64,000 nucleotides of DNA from Vibrio hippocampi (GTDB lineage Bacteria; Pseudomonadota; Gammaproteobacteria; Enterobacterales; Vibrionaceae): the NCBI RefSeq assembly GCF_921292975.1, contig NZ_CAKLCM010000002.1:806001-870000 (forward strand), written 5' to 3'. Below the pieces are notes generated by a model. It was not told where the DNA came from. It did no database searches and saw nothing but the letters and a program-made list of their open reading frames with translations. Every line of letters begins with the position of its first letter. The stretch's first letter is position 1. Below are positions 50,931 to 60,255 of this stretch, piece by piece. The position numbers and the translations under genes are program-made.

Positions 50931-51047
50931 CAAACAATTTAAGAGTGATTCGGCACGCGTGGCATTTTTACTATGCGTTGGTTTAAGTGATTAAGGTGGT
51001 ATGCGGTAGCTTGTGTATTGCGTGCCTCACACCTTAAACAAGGCGTT
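50931..51047 (+). repeat. attC site of cassette 1
   Basis: The left arm TTTAAGAGTGATTCGGCACG and right arm CGTGCCTCACACCTTAAA pair imperfectly around a spacer, and the site ends AGGCGTT. This matches Vibrio superintegron attC (VCR-like) layout. An IS110-type element begins four bases after the GTT. Confidence 0.85.
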
Positions 51048-51050
51048 GAT

Positions 51051-51352
51051 ATGACCCCCACTGTCAATTAAAAATGCAAGAGTTCCTGCTCCCGCATTTC
51101 CAGAGCCTTTTAGCTTTTCAGTAGTAGTGTTACCGCATAGATGAAGCAAGTAATGTCGTCGGTTCTCATGCTGATATTCGTGGATTACTCACCATTCGAT
51201 GAACAGAGCCTACCTTACTTATTCCGTCGTGGCACCTGTCTTCAGTCTATGCTCGTGGTTCAATAAAGCTTGCGCTCTATTGCCGTCCTAACGCCGTCGG
51301 TGGTTGTGCCACACCCGATGTTTCATCCAATGCGATAACACTAATTCTTTTC
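51051..51352 (-). ncRNA. Candidate guide (bridge/seek) RNA region of IS110-type copy 1
   Basis: This is a noncoding segment downstream of the transposase. Read on the minus strand it contains GGCGTTAG (51288-51295), matching the attC 3' core GGCGTT against which both copies sit. It also contains ATAGAC about 40 bases further on, the complement of GTCTAT in the right flank (52603-52608). That is the two-guide layout of known bridge RNAs. These are short matches, so the assignment is tentative. Confidence 0.4.
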
Positions 51353-52507
51353 TCATGCTGGCAACCTTGCGATACGAGTTTTCGGATCGACTTGGCTGAC
51401 CACCACTTCTCTAGCGATTGCCCATATATAGGCAATCATCTCGCGGGCGATGGCGACAACAACAACACTGCGATGCTTTCCTTTTTGCAGCAATCGCTGG
51501 TAACGACGACACAACCTCTGTTGTGCATGCCATGCGATATCGACAATTTCCTTGGGCAGACCTTCTTGCCTGCGTAAGAGCTCGACAGAGATGTTCGCTT
51601 TGTGCTTGTAGGTATGCGCACCTTCAACGAGTAATCGTCTTGCTCGGCTATTTCCACATTTAGTGAGACTGCCGCGTTTGGACTTGCCGCCACTGGAGTT
51701 TTCAGTTGGTACTAATCCTAAGTAAGCCATGAGTTTTCTGGGGTGGTCGAACCGACGTAAGTCACCCAGTTCGGCAATGGTGCCGAGAGCAACGAGTAGT
51801 CTGACTCCACGCATGGCTTGAATGGCTTTAACGACGGGATAATAGCGCCAGTTTTTGACTTGATGGAGCAGCTCATTATCGAGTCGTTGTAGCCGTTGCA
51901 TTCGTTCGCTGATGGTAATGATCATTTCTTGCAGAACGATTTGCTGGCTATGGTGAGGCAAGATGAGGTCGGTCAGCCACCGTAGATGCTTTTTGGACCA
52001 GTTATCTTTCACCGTAGCTTGGATATTGTTTCGAAGTAGGAAGCCTTTTAGTTGGAACTTGGCGTCCTTGAGATCTTTCATCGCGGTTTCACGAGCACGA
52101 GATAAATCTCGAATGGCTTCATCTTCTGACTCAGGAACGTAGATAGGTGTGAGCTCTTCAGCCTTAAAAAGCTTGGCAAGTTTCGCTGCATCACGTTTGT
52201 CGGTTTTCACTCTATCACCTGATTTTTTCGGGATGAGTGAAGGTGCGATGACATAGCAGCAATGCCCTAGGCTTGTGAGCAAACGGTAAGTCCAATATCC
52301 ACATGGCCCCGCTTCGTAAACAAAGTGAAGTGTGGCTTTTGGATACTTAGATTGCAATTGCTGCGCAAGTTTAATCAGCGCAGATTTATTGGACTTAATT
52401 CGTTCTAAGTGCTCTGGTTTTGCGCCACGATGATCTTGTAAAACTGCGACCTGGATAAAAGACTTGTGTGTATCTAAGCCAATGAAAATTATGCTATCGT
52501 TATTCAT
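51353..52507 (-). CDS. IS110-family transposase (copy 1)
   Basis: A 384-residue DEDD transposase: N-terminal RuvC-like half with FIGLDTHKSFIQVAV and KTDKRDAAKLA, coiled middle, and C-terminal transposase_20 domain with MRGVRLLVALGTIAELGDLRRF, LMAYLGLVPTENSSGGKSKRG and the conserved Ser region. ATG 52507 is chosen because GGAGGCTAGC precedes it. It appears intact, with one Val more than copy 2. Confidence 0.9.
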   Translation of the reverse strand: MNNDSIIFIGLDTHKSFIQVAVLQDHRGAKPEHLERIKSNKSALIKLAQQLQSKYPKATLHFVYEAGPCGYWTYRLLTSLGHCCYVIAPSLIPKKSGDRVKTDKRDAAKLAKLFKAEELTPIYVPESEDEAIRDLSRARETAMKDLKDAKFQLKGFLLRNNIQATVKDNWSKKHLRWLTDLILPHHSQQIVLQEMIITISERMQRLQRLDNELLHQVKNWRYYPVVKAIQAMRGVRLLVALGTIAELGDLRRFDHPRKLMAYLGLVPTENSSGGKSKRGSLTKCGNSRARRLLVEGAHTYKHKANISVELLRRQEGLPKEIVDIAWHAQQRLCRRYQRLLQKGKHRSVVVVAIAREMIAYIWAIAREVVVSQVDPKTRIARLPA

Positions 52508-52627
52508 GCTAGCCTCCAAATTTAGTTGTTAACACACTAATTATGGCTCTGGCGTCAAGCTAACCCACGAGATTGGAGGCTAGCACTTCGTGGGGGGCAT
52601 TATGTCTATAGCGATTCGGGGTATATT

Positions 52628-52993
52628 ATGAAATCTTTGTTAAATTTAGTTCAACTTCATTGGCTGCTATTCACAATTATAATAGCTCTGTTAATTACGG
52701 TTTTGTCCCTGTATCCAGTAGATAGTCTTCCTTCGGTTCCAGGTACAGATAAAACTCACCATTTTATTGCTTATGGAGCCTTGGCATTTCCAGTTGCGTT
52801 GGCGAGACCAGAAAAGTGGCTGTTATTTATCGTAGGATTCTTAGGTTGTAGTGGTGTAATTGAATTAGTTCAGCCATATGTAAATCGCTATGGTGAATGG
52901 CTTGACTTAGGCGCAAATGGTTTAGGGCTAGTCGTAGGTATCTTAATTGCGTCTTTTGCTCGGTCGATGATTCTGAAGGAAAAATCGCAATAA
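52628..52993 (+). CDS. Cassette 2: VanZ-like membrane protein
   Basis: A 121-residue protein with about four membrane helices and the VanZ pattern: SLYPVDSLPSVPGTDKTHHFIAYGALAFPVALAR followed by VIELVQPYVNRYGEWLDLGANGLG. VanZ-like proteins are mostly uncharacterised; the founder gives low-level teicoplanin resistance. It begins 27 bases after IS110 copy 1 and runs directly into an attC at its stop, so it is a cassette. Confidence 0.85.
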   Translation: MKSLLNLVQLHWLLFTIIIALLITVLSLYPVDSLPSVPGTDKTHHFIAYGALAFPVALARPEKWLLFIVGFLGCSGVIELVQPYVNRYGEWLDLGANGLGLVVGILIASFARSMILKEKSQ

Positions 52994-53098
52994 CAAACGT
53001 TTAAGATAGATTCCCAACGCTTGGCGTTTTGCATTCTAAGTTGGGGTAAGTGTTTACGGTGTAAAGGTTTAGGTTAGGTGGTATGCGTTGCTCACCTG
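52991..53098 (+). repeat. attC site of cassette 2, left part (split by IS1111-like element)
   Basis: It starts TAACAAACGTTTAAGATAG and contains CCAACGCTTGGCG, the typical left arm of a Vibrio attC. It is broken after CACCTG by the IS. The right part resumes at 54351. Confidence 0.85.
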
Positions 53099-53255
53099 TA
53101 TGGTCTCCCCAGTTTTGTAAGTTAGCAGTGTGATTAAAAGCGCAGGTTAACTACCATATATACGGCCTGTTTTGACGGCTATTGCCTTGAGCAATATGAG
53201 GCAGTCGAACACGAGGTCCTGATCAACTTATCGACTTTAAAAGCTAGGAGGGCGT
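53099..53255 (-). ncRNA. Candidate seekRNA/bridge RNA region with target match
   Basis: This noncoding segment 3' of the transposase includes CCTGATCAACTTA at 53218-53230. The same 13 bases arise by joining the left flank (CCTG, 53095-53098) to the right flank (ATCAACTTA, 54351-54359). A match this long in so short a segment is very unlikely by chance and is what a target guide would look like. Transcript ends are not visible. Confidence 0.55.
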
Positions 53256-54271
53256 TCAGAATTCTGTGTCAGCTAATTTTGGTTGATACTCTTCGTTTTT
53301 GTTGTGATTGCCCATGCGTATTCGCATGAGCTTGTTCGCAAGCGCGACAGCCGCTCGGTTTGGTCCCCGTCGTTCTTGTAAATCCAGCATCCATTTGCTC
53401 AGTTTAAACTTGGCTCGTCTCAAAGCTGTCCTAGCTCCATGAACAAGTAAGGACCGAATATAAGTATTACCTTGCTTAGAAGCATTACGTTCCCGCCTGT
53501 CGTATCTTGCTTTGGAACAAGCCCCATCGCCGCAGAGGCATCTCGCCCAGTTTTAAACTGTTGACCTGAACCGAGCCAGACCGCCACCGCTTGGCTGGTG
53601 AGTGACCCAAAGCCAGGAATTGACATCAATCGCTTGGCATTATCGAATCGTTTAACGGTCTGGTTGAGTTTATCTTCAAACCATTTGATTTGCTCATCGA
53701 TGTATAAATAGCGCTCGTACTGGCGCGATAGAAGTTCACGCAGTATTGGCGATATTTGGTTTTCTGCATCTTCCAGTATCTCTGGAATGGCTTGCCTAAA
53801 TGAGGCTTTTCCTTTGGGAATAACAATGCCGTATTCGGCAATTAAACCTCGAACTTGATTAATCAAGCGGGTTCTTTCAGTGACGCATAATCTACGCATT
53901 CGAATCAGTGATTGAATATCTTGCTGCTCGATAGATTTGTGTAGGACGGGAGGATGTCGTTGGTAAAGCGTGAGTTCAGCAATCGCTTCAGCATCGTTAT
54001 AGTCGTTCTTTTGTTTGCGTCGCTGACTTTTGACATGCTGAGGCGGATATAAAAGTACTTCGTGCCCAAGTTTTTTAAATTCACGAGCCCAGTAATGGGC
54101 ACCAGAGCAGGTCTCCATAGCGATGATGGATGGAGTTTGGTTTGCAACGTAGTTAAGTAGTTTACCTCGTTGAAGTTTTTTACGCCCTAGGTTCTTTCCT
54201 TTATGATTGATTTCAAAAAGAAAGAAAATATTTTTTGCTAAGTCGATGCCGATGGTTTTATGCTGAGTCAT
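53256..54271 (-). pseudogene. IS1111-like transposase, frameshifted
   Basis: The first frame (54271-53420) codes 283 residues: MTQHKTIGIDLAKNIFFLFE, METCSGAHYWAREFKKLGHEV, KNDYNDAEAIAE and, in the C-terminal half, LMSIPGFGSLTSQAVAVWLG and MGLVPKQDTTGG. After TTGG the frame is lost near 53492. ERNASKQGNTYIRSLLVHGA and RRGPNRAAVALANKLMR continue in another frame to about 53300, with a probable second shift before the stop near 53256. The RuvC-like acidic residues are intact, but the C-terminal domain is broken. Confidence 0.82.
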
Positions 54272-54350
54272 GGTCTTCTCCTTCTGCTATGGGTCTGAAC
54301 ACTCCAAGCATGGTTCATAGCTATGTGAAGTGGTAGGGGGAGACCATCTC

Positions 54351-54370
54351 ATCAACTTAATTGGGCGTTA
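54351..54370 (+). repeat. attC site of cassette 2, right part
   Basis: ATCAACTTAATTGGGCGTTA completes attC2 and ends in the GTTA core, 19 bases before the next cassette gene. Confidence 0.8.
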
Positions 54371-54389
54371 TTTTTTCACGAGGTATTGA

Positions 54390-54854
54390 ATGAAAAATGA
54401 AATCGCAGGCGTTTTTTATGATGACCCCAAAATGTCATCAAAGGACCTAGATCAGATCGATATTCTTAGTGAAAAAGACTGTGTAGAAAAATGGTCTGCA
54501 TATATTAGTAAAGTAAGTCGTCACTACATGCGAATGAGAGATGATGAGTGGCCTGTAAAGATCGTTTCTGGAAAAAATTGCTTTTATCACTGGTTAGAAA
54601 GCTGGAACAGCGACAATTTTCTAGAGTTTAGTAATCGACTGCAGGATATAGGCATTCCGGACAACAGTACTCTTATTGTATTTTGGATGAGAGAAATTGG
54701 TCTTAAAACTAGCTGGGGAGTTTTTCGCAGAAATTGGGGAAATTTTCTATACGAGGATGAAGGTTGTATTTTGGTTCTTCCTGAGCGAGATGAATCGCTA
54801 GTATTGAGTAACGGTGTGGCTTGGTTAGGTAAACGAAGTGAGCCCAAAACATAA
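54390..54854 (+). CDS. Cassette 3: hypothetical protein, DUF2947-like
   Basis: A 154-residue acidic, tryptophan-rich cytosolic protein. LIVFWMREIGLKTSWGVFRRNWGNFLYEDEGCILVLPE and the ending NGVAWLGKRS resemble DUF2947, a family frequent in Vibrio cassettes; I am not certain of this. Function unknown. It starts right after the attC2 core with ACGAGGTATTGA before ATG, and its stop merges into attC3. Confidence 0.7.
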   Translation: MKNEIAGVFYDDPKMSSKDLDQIDILSEKDCVEKWSAYISKVSRHYMRMRDDEWPVKIVSGKNCFYHWLESWNSDNFLEFSNRLQDIGIPDNSTLIVFWMREIGLKTSWGVFRRNWGNFLYEDEGCILVLPERDESLVLSNGVAWLGKRSEPKT

Positions 54855-54967: not shown

Positions 54968-56298
54968 CTGAGGGAGCCCCTCATAATTCCCCCAGTCCTG
55001 AATTGTGTGTCAGTTTTTGATATTCAAACATCCCCCATTGATATTGAGATTCGTTAATCTGGTATCGCCGATGATTTCGCACTTCTCTCCTAGGCGTGGT
55101 ATTGATAGAACACGGCGATGTTTAATACTGTTGGCTTGGAAGTCATAATGCCATTTGGCTTGCATGGCGTAAGCCATTCCACCACATGATGATTTCGGCC
55201 ATCAATGCCATGAGCAACAAGATATCAATGCGCTTAGTGCAACGTGTTCGATTGTGGCGTAGCGCTAACCCGTAAGCGGGGCTTTTCAAATCTCGGAACG
55301 ACTCTTCAATTTGCATTCTTTTAGCGTACAAACGGGTGATTTTAACGCCGTTAAGTACATGATTTGGGATGTTAGTGACCAGAAGCCAAGGTTCTTTTGC
55401 TCCTTTATGGAACACTTTTCCTGCCGAGTGTTTCTGGCAGGTTCGGCTATGTCGATGCGCTTTTCTGCCTTTGGGATGACTCTTGTATAAGTAAGCAAAG
55501 CACTTAAGCGGTGAGCGCCTAGCAAGTTGGCTTTCTCCTAAAAACAGCGGCTTATCTGTTGCTTGAGGATAAAACGTTTTATTCCATTGCCAAGCGCCCT
55601 CGCCACACTTAATCGAGACTTCGCCACGTACACGCCCAAGCCAGAACCAACCTTTGCTGGCGACTTGCCTGAACCACGTATTTCTAAAGCCAGCGTCGGA
55701 GATAATGATAGGCGTGCAGCCATGGGGGATCAGGGATTGCAGCTTATCGAGAAAGTGCTGATGGCTCTTGGGTGAGTTGTAGTTTTTGTACTCAAATGCC
55801 TGCTCATAAAGCGTGACGGCACGACCTTTAACGGATACCGAAGCGCGCAATGTCATATAGCGCAGTTGCTCACGAACATCCGACCAATCAACCAGCACTA
55901 CAGGAAAAGGGTTGGCGCGGGTAATAAAGGAAGCATGCCATTTATATATGGACTCTTTTTCACGGTGTAGATTGTGATTACCAAGCAATCGGTCGATACG
56001 TTTGATGGCATGTTTCACCGTAGTATCAGTATCGAGAGCTCGTCCAATTTTGGTGAGTGTGAGGTCAGAGCCATCAAGTACAGTTTTGGTTGCAAGTATC
56101 AGAGATCTAAGTCGTTTTTTGTGAATGTCAGGGCATTGATTCTCAAGAGTTTGCTGTAGAATTTGAACATCGCGCATCGTTAGGACTCCCTATTAAATCC
56201 ATTAAATCAGGTGTGTTTTTGGCGAAATTCATTAGATCAGAATGAGCGATGCGCGTCTACTCATTGTTTTATATAGAAATTATGAGGGGATTCGTAAG
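54968..56298 (-). mobile_element. IS4-family, IS10-like insertion sequence (copy B) inside attC3
   Basis: A 1331-base element. Left end CTGAGGGAGCCCCTCATAAT and inverted right end CTTACGAATCCCCTCATAAT are imperfect inverted repeats closely resembling IS10 ends. The nine-base flanks AAGCTGGCG and AACAGGGCG agree at six positions only, so there is no clean duplication. It is a different element from copy A. Confidence 0.85.
55010..56177 (-). pseudogene. IS10-like transposase (copy B), frameshifted near the C-terminus
   Basis: The first frame (56177-55143) codes 344 residues close to IS10 transposase: VVLVDWSDVREQ, IISDAGFRNTWF and YAKRMQIEESFRDLKSPAYG with the catalytic Glu. It stops after HASQMAL. 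The expected ending AKWHYDFQANSIKHRRVLS lies in the +1 frame and runs to 55010. The break is at the same place, and in the same direction, as in copy A. Full IS10 transposase has about 402 residues; this one would have about 389 if joined. Confidence 0.82.
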
Positions 56299-56312
56299 AA
56301 CAGGGCGTTGAT

Positions 56313-57858
56313 ATGACCCCCACTGTCAATTAAAATGCAAGAGTTCCTGCTCACGCATTTCCAGAGCCTTTTAGCTTTTCAGTAGTAGTGTTACCGCATA
56401 GATGAAGCAAGTAATGTCGTCGGTTCTCATGCTGATATTCGTGGATTACTCACCATTCGATGAACAGAGCCTACCTTACTTATTCCGTCGTGGCACCTGT
56501 CTTCAGTCTATGCTCGTGGTTCAATAAAGCTTGCGCTCTATTGCCGTCCTAACGCCGTCGGTGGTTGTGCCACACCCGATGCTTCATCCAATGCGATAAC
56601 ACTAATTCTTTTCTCATGCTGGCAACCTTGCGATACGAGTTTTCGGATCGACTTGGCTGACCACCACTTCTCTAGCGATTGCCCATATATAGGCAATCAT
56701 CTCACGGGCGATGGCGACAACAACACTGCGATGCTTTCCTTTTTGCAGCAGTCGCTGGTAACGACGGCACAACCTCTGTTGCGCATGCCAGGCGATGTCG
56801 ACAATCTCCTTGGGCAGACCTTCTTGCCTGCGTAAGAGCTCGACAGAGATATTCGCCTTGTGTTTGTAGGTATGCGCACCTTCAACGAGTAGTCGCCTTG
56901 CTCGGCTATTCCCACATTTAGTGAGACTGCCGCGTTTGAACTTGCCGCCACTGGAGTTTTCAGTTGGTACTAATCCTAAGTAAGCCATGAGTTTTCTGGG
57001 GTGGTCGAACCGACGTAAGTCACCCAGTTCGGCAATGGTGCCGAGAGCAACGAGTAGTCTGACTCCACGCATGGCTTGAATGGCTTTAACGACGGGATAA
57101 TAGCGCCAGTTTTTGACTTGATGGAGCAGCTCATTATCGAGTCGCTGTAGCCGTTGCATTCGCTCACTGATGGTAATGATCATTTCTTGCAGAACAATTT
57201 GCTGGCTATGGTGAGGCAAGATGAGGTCGGTCAGCCACCGTAGATGCTTTTTGGACCAGTTATCTTTCACCGTAGCTTGGATATTGTTTCGAAGTAGGAA
57301 GCCTTTTAGTTGGAACTTGGCGTCCTTGAGATCTTTCATCGCGGTTTCACGAGCACGAGATAAATCTCGAATGGCTTCATCTTCTGACTCAGGAACGTAG
57401 ATAGGTGTGAGCTCTTCAGCCTTAAAAAGCTTGGCAAGTTTCGCTGCATCACGTTTGTCGGTTTTCACTCTATCACCTGATTTTTTCGGGATGAGTGAAG
57501 GTGCGATGACATAGCAGCAATGCCCTAGGCTTGTGAGCAAACGGTAAGTCCAATATCCACATGGCCCCGCTTCGTAAACAAAGTGAAGTGTGGCTTTTGG
57601 ATACTTAGATTGCAATTGCTGCGCAAGTTTAATCAGCGCAGATTTATTGGATTTAATTCGTCCTAAGTGCTCTGGTTTTGCGCCACGATGATCTTGTAAA
57701 ACTGCGACCTGGATAAAAGACTTGTGTGTATCTAAGCTAATGAAAATTATGCTATCGTTATTCATGCTAGCCTCCAAATTTAGTTGTTAACACACTAATT
57801 ATGGCTCTGGCGTCAAGCTAACCCACGAGATTGGAGGCTAGCACTTCGTGGGGGGCAT
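56313..57858 (-). mobile_element. IS110/IS1111-type insertion sequence, copy 2, at an attC core
   Basis: A 1546-base direct repeat of 51051-52600. The left flank is again GGCGTTGAT, here the 3' core of the attC broken by IS10-like copy B. The right end abuts the left end of an IS3 element with no sequence between. The downstream noncoding segment, including GGCGTTAG on the minus strand at 56549-56556, is conserved. Confidence 0.88.
56614..57765 (-). CDS. IS110-family transposase (copy 2)
   Basis: A 383-residue DEDD transposase, nearly identical to copy 1; visible differences include FISLDTHKSF for FIGLDTHKSF, HLGRI for HLERI, GGKFKRG for GGKSKRG, and one Val fewer near the C-terminus. The reading frame is intact and GGAGGCTAGC precedes ATG 57765. 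It may be functional. Confidence 0.9.
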   Translation of the reverse strand: MNNDSIIFISLDTHKSFIQVAVLQDHRGAKPEHLGRIKSNKSALIKLAQQLQSKYPKATLHFVYEAGPCGYWTYRLLTSLGHCCYVIAPSLIPKKSGDRVKTDKRDAAKLAKLFKAEELTPIYVPESEDEAIRDLSRARETAMKDLKDAKFQLKGFLLRNNIQATVKDNWSKKHLRWLTDLILPHHSQQIVLQEMIITISERMQRLQRLDNELLHQVKNWRYYPVVKAIQAMRGVRLLVALGTIAELGDLRRFDHPRKLMAYLGLVPTENSSGGKFKRGSLTKCGNSRARRLLVEGAHTYKHKANISVELLRRQEGLPKEIVDIAWHAQQRLCRRYQRLLQKGKHRSVVVAIAREMIAYIWAIAREVVVSQVDPKTRIARLPA

Positions 57859-57933
57859 TGTAAGCATCCCCTAAAATAGGTGTATTCCGATTTAGAGTTT
57901 TTCCGTTTAAACTGATTCAAACGGAGAACGCTG

Positions 57934-59460: not shown

Positions 59461-60141
59461 GTGAAAATGATATCTGTATCACCGCCATTACGTGGAGATT
59501 GGAAGGCCGCCAATACGCCCGGTGATCGTATCCCCAGCCATGGAACTCACCAATTTGGACAGACTTACGCTTATGACTTTGTGAGATTTAAATCTGTTAA
59601 TCACAAAGATAGTTTTCATACCAAATCACAGTTAAGTTACTGGATGGCTCAAGTGACATTGCCCGATTGTCACGGTTGGGGCGAACCAATCTTTTCACCG
59701 ATAGATGGTGTTGTGCGTGAAGTGGTCAATTTTGTTAAAGAACGAGAGCGGCTTCATTTATTAAGCGACTTAGGGTTAGCGATATACAATGGGCTATTTT
59801 ATTCATTCGAAAAAGATGAAGTGCATAAAATTGGTGGTAACTATTTAATTATTGAAGGCGCTGAGTGCTGTGCATGGATAGCACATGCCAAAACGGGCTC
59901 TATTGTTCCCAAAGTAGGCGATGTGGTCAAAGCTGGGGATGTCGTTGCAGAATTAGGTCATTCCGGAAACTCTACTGCGCCCCATTTACATTTTCAACTG
60001 ATGGATCGTCTTGATGTCAGAACAGCTAAGGGCATCCCTTGTTGTTTCAATAGTTATGATGTTTTATCTGATGGTCACTGGTGCACTGTCATCAATGGAA
60101 TTCCCAAAAGTGACCAAACTATTCGCTTTAATGTCACATAA
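59461..60141 (+). CDS. Cassette: M23-family metallopeptidase without signal peptide
   Basis: A 226-residue LytM/M23 domain protein: HGTHQFGQTYAYDFVRF (zinc His and Asp), an insert, then GGNYLIIEGAECCAWIAHAKTGSIV, GDVVKAGDVVAELGHSGNST and PHLHFQL (HxH). M23 enzymes usually cut peptidoglycan cross-bridges outside the cytoplasm, but this one has no signal peptide or membrane anchor. It starts at GTG 59461 after AAGGAG. Its stop runs into an attC, so it is a cassette gene. Confidence 0.82.
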   Translation: MKMISVSPPLRGDWKAANTPGDRIPSHGTHQFGQTYAYDFVRFKSVNHKDSFHTKSQLSYWMAQVTLPDCHGWGEPIFSPIDGVVREVVNFVKERERLHLLSDLGLAIYNGLFYSFEKDEVHKIGGNYLIIEGAECCAWIAHAKTGSIVPKVGDVVKAGDVVAELGHSGNSTAPHLHFQLMDRLDVRTAKGIPCCFNSYDVLSDGHWCTVINGIPKSDQTIRFNVT

Positions 60142-60255
60142 AGCGTTTAAGACGGATTTCCAACGCTTGGCACTTTGGGTTTGAGTTGGCTTTAGTGTCT
60201 ACGACACAACGGTTTAGGTTGGGTGATAGCTCTGCTCATTGCTCAACGTGGTTTG
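60139..60255 (+). repeat. attC-like site after the M23 gene
   Basis: It starts TAAAGCGTTTAAGACGG and contains CCAACGCTTGGCA, very like attC2, and continues GGTTTAGGTTGGGTGATAGC. The expected right-hand GGCGTTA core is not found; GCTCAACGTGG stands near that position. It is probably degenerate. Confidence 0.7.

Follow-up and report, generated by a model that had tools for sequence, protein, structure and literature searches.

A decayed IS1111-family element in a Vibrio attC right arm and the putative four-guide layout of its RNA

A 64,000-nucleotide stretch of the Vibrio hippocampi genome (contig NZ_CAKLCM010000002.1, positions 806,001 to 870,000; hereafter the window, numbered from its first letter) carries an insertion sequence (IS) that is very probably a decayed member of an IS1111-family lineage, which would use a seekRNA or bridge RNA with a four-guide layout to target the right arm of Vibrio-type attC sites. 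Sequence comparison demonstrates the boundaries of the element, its target, a conserved segment after the transposase gene (tnp) and the covariation of four RNA stretches with four DNA words, and a transcript of this segment would work as the seekRNA or bridge RNA. In the mechanism that we propose, a 5′ module (right-target guide, hairpin, and left-target guide with core) would pair with both strands of the attC arm, a 3′ module (right-donor guide, hairpin, and left-donor guide with core) would pair with the IS at its left and right ends, and target and donor would be recombined at the core by the DEDD transposase. More broadly, and with somewhat less assurance, we consider it likely that IS1111 seekRNAs are in general full bridge RNAs of two look-alike modules, of which one serves the target and the other the ends of the element itself, in an order reversed relative to IS621, and that in Vibrio integrons two such lineages with different guides parasitise a single attC arm at two places separated by 12 bp, with tnp-less, RNA-carrying mini-elements riding along.

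Element ends and the interrupted attC site

The sequence-only reading of this window had placed an IS1111-like element within an attC right arm and pointed to a 13-base string in its noncoding end, CCTGATCAACTTA (53218-53230), as a copy of the joined flanks CCTG (53095-53098) and ATCAACTTA (54351-54359). All three strings are present at these places, the family and the attC location hold up, and the segment does lie in the noncoding region downstream of tnp, the source region of seekRNAs. The ends had been drawn too narrowly. Two subterminal inverted repeats (sTIRs) of 11 bp, within the 11-13 bp of IS1111 elements and identical at every base, were found at 53100-53110 (GGGGAGACCAT, right end) and 54337-54347 (ATGGTCTCCCC on the IS strand, left end). 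Outside the sTIRs, IS1111 elements have extensions of 7 bp on the left and 3 bp on the right, with occasional 6-bp left extensions (PMC11187229). Taking the left end as the one upstream of tnp, which lies on the minus strand here, the sTIRs and this 7/3 rule assign the element to 53097-54354 on the minus strand (1258 bp), with the left extension TGATGAG at 54348-54354 and the right extension ACA at 53097-53099, both on the IS strand.

Joining 53096 to 54355 yields CTCACC^ACTTAATTGGGCGTTA (the caret marks the junction). The joined arms, comprising the left part of the interrupted attC (52991-53096, plus strand) and its right end ACTTAATTGGGCGTTA (54355-54370, plus strand), are 79% identical to an intact attC of the same genome over 123 columns in an alignment that runs through the junction, and the intact word CTCACC^ACTTAACGCGGCGTTA occurs twice in attC arms of this genome, next to other variants, so the joined flanks match the intact layout. 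The join proposed earlier leaves six surplus bases relative to intact attC, and the identity of the 13-mer with the joined flanks came from the misplaced ends. Since this genome's intact attC sites have CTCACC^ACTTAA here, TG and ATCA are assigned to the IS ends, and the target words read from these sites are CC and ACTTA only. A further attC-like sequence in the window, at 60141-60238, is 76% identical to the interrupted attC over 100 columns.

The window contains a single exact copy of the 13-mer, and allowing up to two mismatches gives 5 matches against a chance expectation of 1.62. Read on the IS strand it is TAAGTTGATCAGG, and the left flank with the left end is TAAGT^TGATGAGA; the two share 9 contiguous bases and 11/13 overall, and about 0.0006 such 9-base matches are expected by chance in 157 bases (157/4^9). 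ACTTA (TAAGT on the IS strand) and the next two bases are likely the guide, and the 13-mer very probably holds the left-target guide only, plus neighbouring bases that resemble the left IS end.

Covariation of four RNA stretches with flanks and ends across the family

We searched 222 sequences for tnp relatives, paired their ATGG...CCAT repeats and applied the 7/3 rule, which gave 88 insertions and, after clustering at 45% shared 7-mers, 56 RNA clusters, of which 55 were used and one containing N was dropped. Excluded were matches with fewer than 150 aligned residues or with a start beyond residue 45, together with short frames and loci lacking a paired ATGG...CCAT repeat. The RNAs were aligned blind to the flanking DNA, columns filled in less than 70% of rows were excluded, and 30 DNA positions in the left and right flanks (LF, RF) and left and right ends (LE, RE) were scanned against the remaining columns for identity and complementarity with 400 permutations, covering 8573 column/position pairs. 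This aligned test replaced an earlier test of 11-base spans across the entire noncoding region, a test that was weak for many single elements.

Four stretches emerged from the scan, which suggests guides for the right target, the left target with the core, the left IS end, and the right IS end with the core. Positions LF-5 to -1 were identical to columns 49-53 in 34, 43, 43, 47 and 46 of the 55 elements (z 5.6-9.1; left-target guide, LTG), and RF+3 to +6 were complementary to columns 24-21 in 32/50, 33/50, 32/48 and 28/47 (z 5.4-6.8; right-target guide, RTG), with a weaker complement signal for RF+1, +2, +7 and +8 at columns 26, 25, 20 and 19. LE+6 and LE+7 were complementary to columns 86 and 85 (42/55 and 33/55; z 5.8 and 5.5; right-donor guide, RDG), RE-3 and RE-2 were identical to columns 148 and 149 (55/55 and 53/55; z 7.4 and 8.6; left-donor guide, LDG), and the first core base matched both column 54 and column 151 (z 8.1-8.8). 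Signals outside this scheme included LE+5 with column 145 (z 5.0) and LF-1 complementary to column 27, which adjoins the right-target guide (z 4.9).

In fixed registers, the left-target guide matched 3.87/5 bases of its own flank versus 1.44/5 for other flanks, with a full match in 30/55 elements and at least 4/5 bases in 39/55, a level reached with 4.8% of the flanks of other elements. The corresponding values were 2.27/4 versus 0.92/4 for the right-target guide, 1.36/2 versus 0.72/2 for the right-donor guide, and 2.80/3 versus 1.86/3 for the left-donor guide with the core. When only distinct DNA words were kept, the observed fit was reached by 0/20000 permutations for LTG (44 words), RTG (46) and LDG (10), and by 56/20000 for RDG (10 words). 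All four guides were also seen in both parts of the set, of 35 and 20 elements (0/20000 each); the 20-cluster part consists of later-added loci, and since the columns had been picked on the joint set, the result speaks to consistency and does not amount to a blind test.

Along the RNA, the guides run 5′ to 3′ as right-target, left-target with core, right-donor, and left-donor with core. A hairpin of at least 4 bp lies directly 5′ of the left-target guide in 48/55 elements, compared with a mean of 20.8 and a maximum of 29 in shuffled sequences, and RNAalifold on the family alignment returned a donor-module stem (GGCC/GGCC in most elements) that shows compensatory changes and is topped by a variable hairpin. 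For the close group, RNAalifold in short windows paired the left-target stretch with the right-donor stretch, a result that we did not rely on. The loop CATCTTGGCCA had been considered as a second target guide that would pair with GTTAAGG^TG by way of G-U pairs, and was dropped because the family scan gives the overlapping CTCAT to the left IS end and TGCTCAC to the right target.

Close relatives and their attC target

Vibrio genomes contributed relatives at 75-92% identity, as did one Photobacterium and one Psychrobacter; one genome (G301) has eight copies whose last 260 bases are identical. The RNA segment also matched four records of plasmids from V. campbellii and Vibrio sp. THAF190c, two regions of which were used. 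The resulting close group comprises 33 distinct rows, 26 of them with a readable left flank. Its members have in common, with few variants, the ends TGATGAG...ATA and the target TAACGCCnnnTTAAGG^TGTGAGCAACGC, and TTAAG stands at the left flank in 25/26 distinct copies, the window copy included and L137 excepted, in one orientation and at one place of attC. Judged from these flanks, the lineage inserts in one orientation inside the attC right arm, at TTAAG(G/T)^core. Downstream of tnp the close relatives carry, with small variations, TGCTCAC-(CTGGCTTTTAAAGTCGA)-TAAGGTGATTAGG...CTCATCTTGG...GGCCGTATATATGG, and at the place of the window's 13-mer they read TAAGGTGATTAGG, except that L123 and L144 have TAAGTTGATCAGG.

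Where guide base -1 is G, the flank has G in 23 copies and A in one (L134); where it is T, the flank has T in the window copy and G in the tnp-less mini-element L144, which is 393 bp long, has no room for tnp and has a full-size neighbour with guide G some 4.5 kb away. In V. maerlii (G184), a guide with T (L123) accompanies two left junctions with flank T, the RNA and the junctions being on separate contigs. Empty arms, in the form searched for, showed 16 G and 3 T at -1 in the G301 loci, 1 G and 1 T in the genome of the window, 2 G in V. maerlii, and 5 G, 4 T and 2 A in other loci. Because of L144 and L134, and because empty arms carry both T and G at this position, the covariation at base -1 within the close group is suggestive only. 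The expectation that the 13-mer segment varies with its flanks was thus borne out at the family level, over the 55 RNA clusters, and for the close relatives stays at that suggestive level, with L144 as a counter-example.

L144 and a second mini-element, L129 (336 bp), are too short for a transposase and keep both ends and the guide RNA segment, resembling miniature inverted-repeat transposable elements; they were possibly moved in trans. In one close relative (L137/L094/L115), the left flank and left end deviate (CTAACG^TAATTAG) next to a right flank of normal attC, and its left side is possibly rearranged. A second IS1111 clade (L018, L022, L024, L029, L032, L034, L043, L047, L002, L096 and L112) is inserted after TAAC, mostly as TAAC^GCC or similar, as at the end of attC and 12 bp from the site of the window element, with left ends GAATGAT/C and right ends mostly GTA; at L096/L116 both IS1111 lineages occupy one attC arm.

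The window copy and alternative explanations

In the window copy, the noncoding region downstream of tnp spans 157 nt (53099-53255), a longer noncoding stretch as is typical of IS1111 elements, and the family registers place the candidate guides on its minus strand. The left-target guide TAAGT (53226-53230) with the core TG (53224-53225) occupies 53224-53230, the right-donor guide CTCAT, complementary to ATGAG of TGATGAG, lies at 53196-53200, and the left-donor guide with core, ATATATG, at 53155-53161. A possible hairpin, CTTTTAAAG, is found at 53235-53243, 5′ of the left-target guide. In the place where relatives carry the right-target guide TGCTCAC, alignment reveals a rearranged stretch (53248-53279, minus strand, approximate bounds): on the IS strand, 53090-53300 contains no TGCTCAC, and the stretch is replaced by sequence that has no clear similarity to the relatives. 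The window thus appears to hold the surviving half of a target-reading loop, with the right-target guide lost. The earlier proposal of a seekRNA guide is in this sense partly supported: TAAGT stands in the left-target register, but a single 13-base guide to the joined target is not supported. The guide would consist of five target bases and a two-base core, and a separate segment further 5′, TGCTCAC in close relatives, would read the target's right side.

The transposase is also damaged. The open N-terminal part (53420-54271, minus strand) encodes 283 amino acids that match PF01548 and the start of PF02371, the latter only at positions 2-51 of 87, before the frame breaks, and the remaining C-terminal part continues in another frame to 53256. 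The sequence GLVPKQDTTGG in this open reading frame fits the motif GL-P----S/TG, which is named for IS1111 transposases (PMC11187229), in keeping with a DEDD transposase, and the 283 residues fall short of the 330-350 of the family. In 15/19 close genomes the best match has an open frame of at least 304 amino acids free of stops, and given these open frames the short frame is read as decay and not as a sign of another family. The window copy is shorter than the full-length relatives measured (1258 bp versus 1332-1341 bp), and its right extension is ACA, compared with ATA in nearly all close relatives and ATG in L147. With its frame broken, its right-target guide lost and its right end changed, the copy looks like a dead relic, and the first two of these defects mean that it should not move by itself any more.

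The alternative that the element is still mobile, through help in trans or programmed frameshifting, is quite unlikely, although it fares slightly better than the other rivals. Its ends and left-target guide are intact, and the tnp-less L144 and L129, with ends and RNA in other genomes, make mobilisation in trans plausible in this family. Against it stand the missing right-target guide and the altered right extension, the open frames of the close genomes, and the copy number: a DNA search found a single copy in the genome, and the matches listed in transposase searches of the same genome (4 counted) include the relic and the window's two IS110 copies.

We regard it as very unlikely that the segment is merely an attC fragment captured by recombination and has no guide function. 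Only five target bases are involved and the copy is damaged, and the 157-nt segment alone folds no better than shuffled sequences (z -0.08), with no Rfam match up to E = 1 in 52900-54500. Yet the segment sits at the same place in aligned close relatives, and in other IS1111 elements the same register tracks unrelated, non-attC flanks. An RNA pattern search gave 0 exact matches in viral contigs.

Comparably improbable is that the covariation reflects shared descent alone, clades that share an RNA also sharing a target. The permutation tests ignore the tree, and some clades, such as the attC-end group, supply similar words; but clustering was done at 45% shared 7-mers, the subsets of distinct words retain the signal, and consecutive DNA positions fall on consecutive RNA columns, rising for the left flank and falling for the right. 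Moreover, where nearest neighbours have different flanks, their guides show the corresponding difference in 38/66 positions.

The reading of the 13-mer as a single unbroken guide to the entire joined target can be dismissed almost entirely: the exact string match to the flanks as first joined favours it, but the sTIRs and intact attC sites assign six of its bases to the IS ends, G-type relatives share only TAAG-TGAT-AGG with the 13-mer, and the right flank covaries with another RNA segment and, beyond the core, not with that of the 13-mer.

The four-guide layout thus remains the reading that we strongly favour, and several observations weigh against it. The permutations take no account of the relatedness of the elements, and among disjoint nearest pairs 28/66 flank differences are unmatched at the guide, beside the 38 matched on both sides. 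The left-target guide matches at most 2/5 bases in 10/55 elements; five of these (L035, L036, L055, L057 and L062, with ..GATGT left ends) seem to fit, guide and core, with a 6-bp left extension, and the other poor fits lack an explanation or are misaligned. A full match is seen in just 19/55 elements for the 4 bases of RTG and in 28/55 for the 2 bases of RDG, RE-1 gave no covariation signal in the scan (best z 2.4), and RNAalifold found no target-module stem in the family alignment. Outside the scheme, column 93 covaries with LE+4/LE+5 (z 6.3, a signal carried by 4 rows), as do columns 54 and 151 with LE+7 (z 4.9). In the close group, L144, L134 and L137 are flank exceptions, and ATATATG in the window copy fits the relatives' right end ATA^TG, not the copy's own ACA. 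Finally, a short seekRNA of 82 nt is enough for transposition of ISEc11 (PMC11187229).

Comparison with known IS110 and IS1111 guide RNAs

In IS621, the left guide comes before the right guide. The IS1111 relatives analysed here differ in that the right guide precedes the left in both modules, with the RNA downstream of tnp. The likeness to the IS621 bridge RNA lies in the four guides with a shared core; in target and donor alike, the bottom strand pairs with the left guides and the top strand with the right guides (PMC11208160). The same work predicts LTG, RTG, LDG and RDG for three IS1111-group members, including ISPa11 (PMC11208160 Extended Data Fig. 10); those guides came from inspection of single elements, whereas ours come from covariation over 55 RNA clusters. 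The contribution here is covariation support for the donor guides, IS1111 target guides having been published already and donor guides as predictions for three members.

IS1111 seekRNAs carry the top-strand complement first, the reverse of IS110 (PMC11187229), and this published order agrees with the target module apparent here. The ISEc11 seekRNA likewise complements both target strands within one RNA, with overlap in the target and the top-strand complement first; it has another target, and no donor guides are described for it in the portions of PMC11187229 that bear on it. For ISXne4, flank and guide change together (PMC11187229). Closest in target are ISKpn4, ISPst6 and ISPa25, also IS1111 elements that target attC, whose seekRNAs, mapped or predicted, come from downstream of tnp and have segments matching both target strands (PMC11187229). 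The published position of ISKpn4 and ISPst6 is 'one end' of attC (PMC11187229), which may set them apart from the window lineage with its insertion inside the attC arm; among the 40 matches listed, none was named ISKpn4 or ISPst6. In the literature, a search whose scope lay outside the element lists of Tetu and Holmes 2008 and Post and Hall 2009 turned up no description of a Vibrio IS1111 lineage at this attC position, and no covariation analysis of IS1111 RNAs was found.

PMC11187229, at least in its sections on these points, does not settle by which domain the IS ends are bound or whether IS1111 and IS110 share a mechanism. The covariation offers sequence evidence that the RNA of an IS1111 element may read the element's own ends besides the target, in registers where changes of two or three bases would serve as a test. 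Integron biology gains a lineage that interrupts attC arms in Vibrio arrays, and such interruption should hinder movement of the affected cassette. The window copy itself is an ordinary relic.

Genomic neighbourhood

Between two IS110-type copies (51037-52601 and 56299-57859) lie a gene for a DDE transposase (55143-56177, PF01609) and the attC/IS1111 relic. The two copies share one orientation and are 98.2% identical over 1565 columns.
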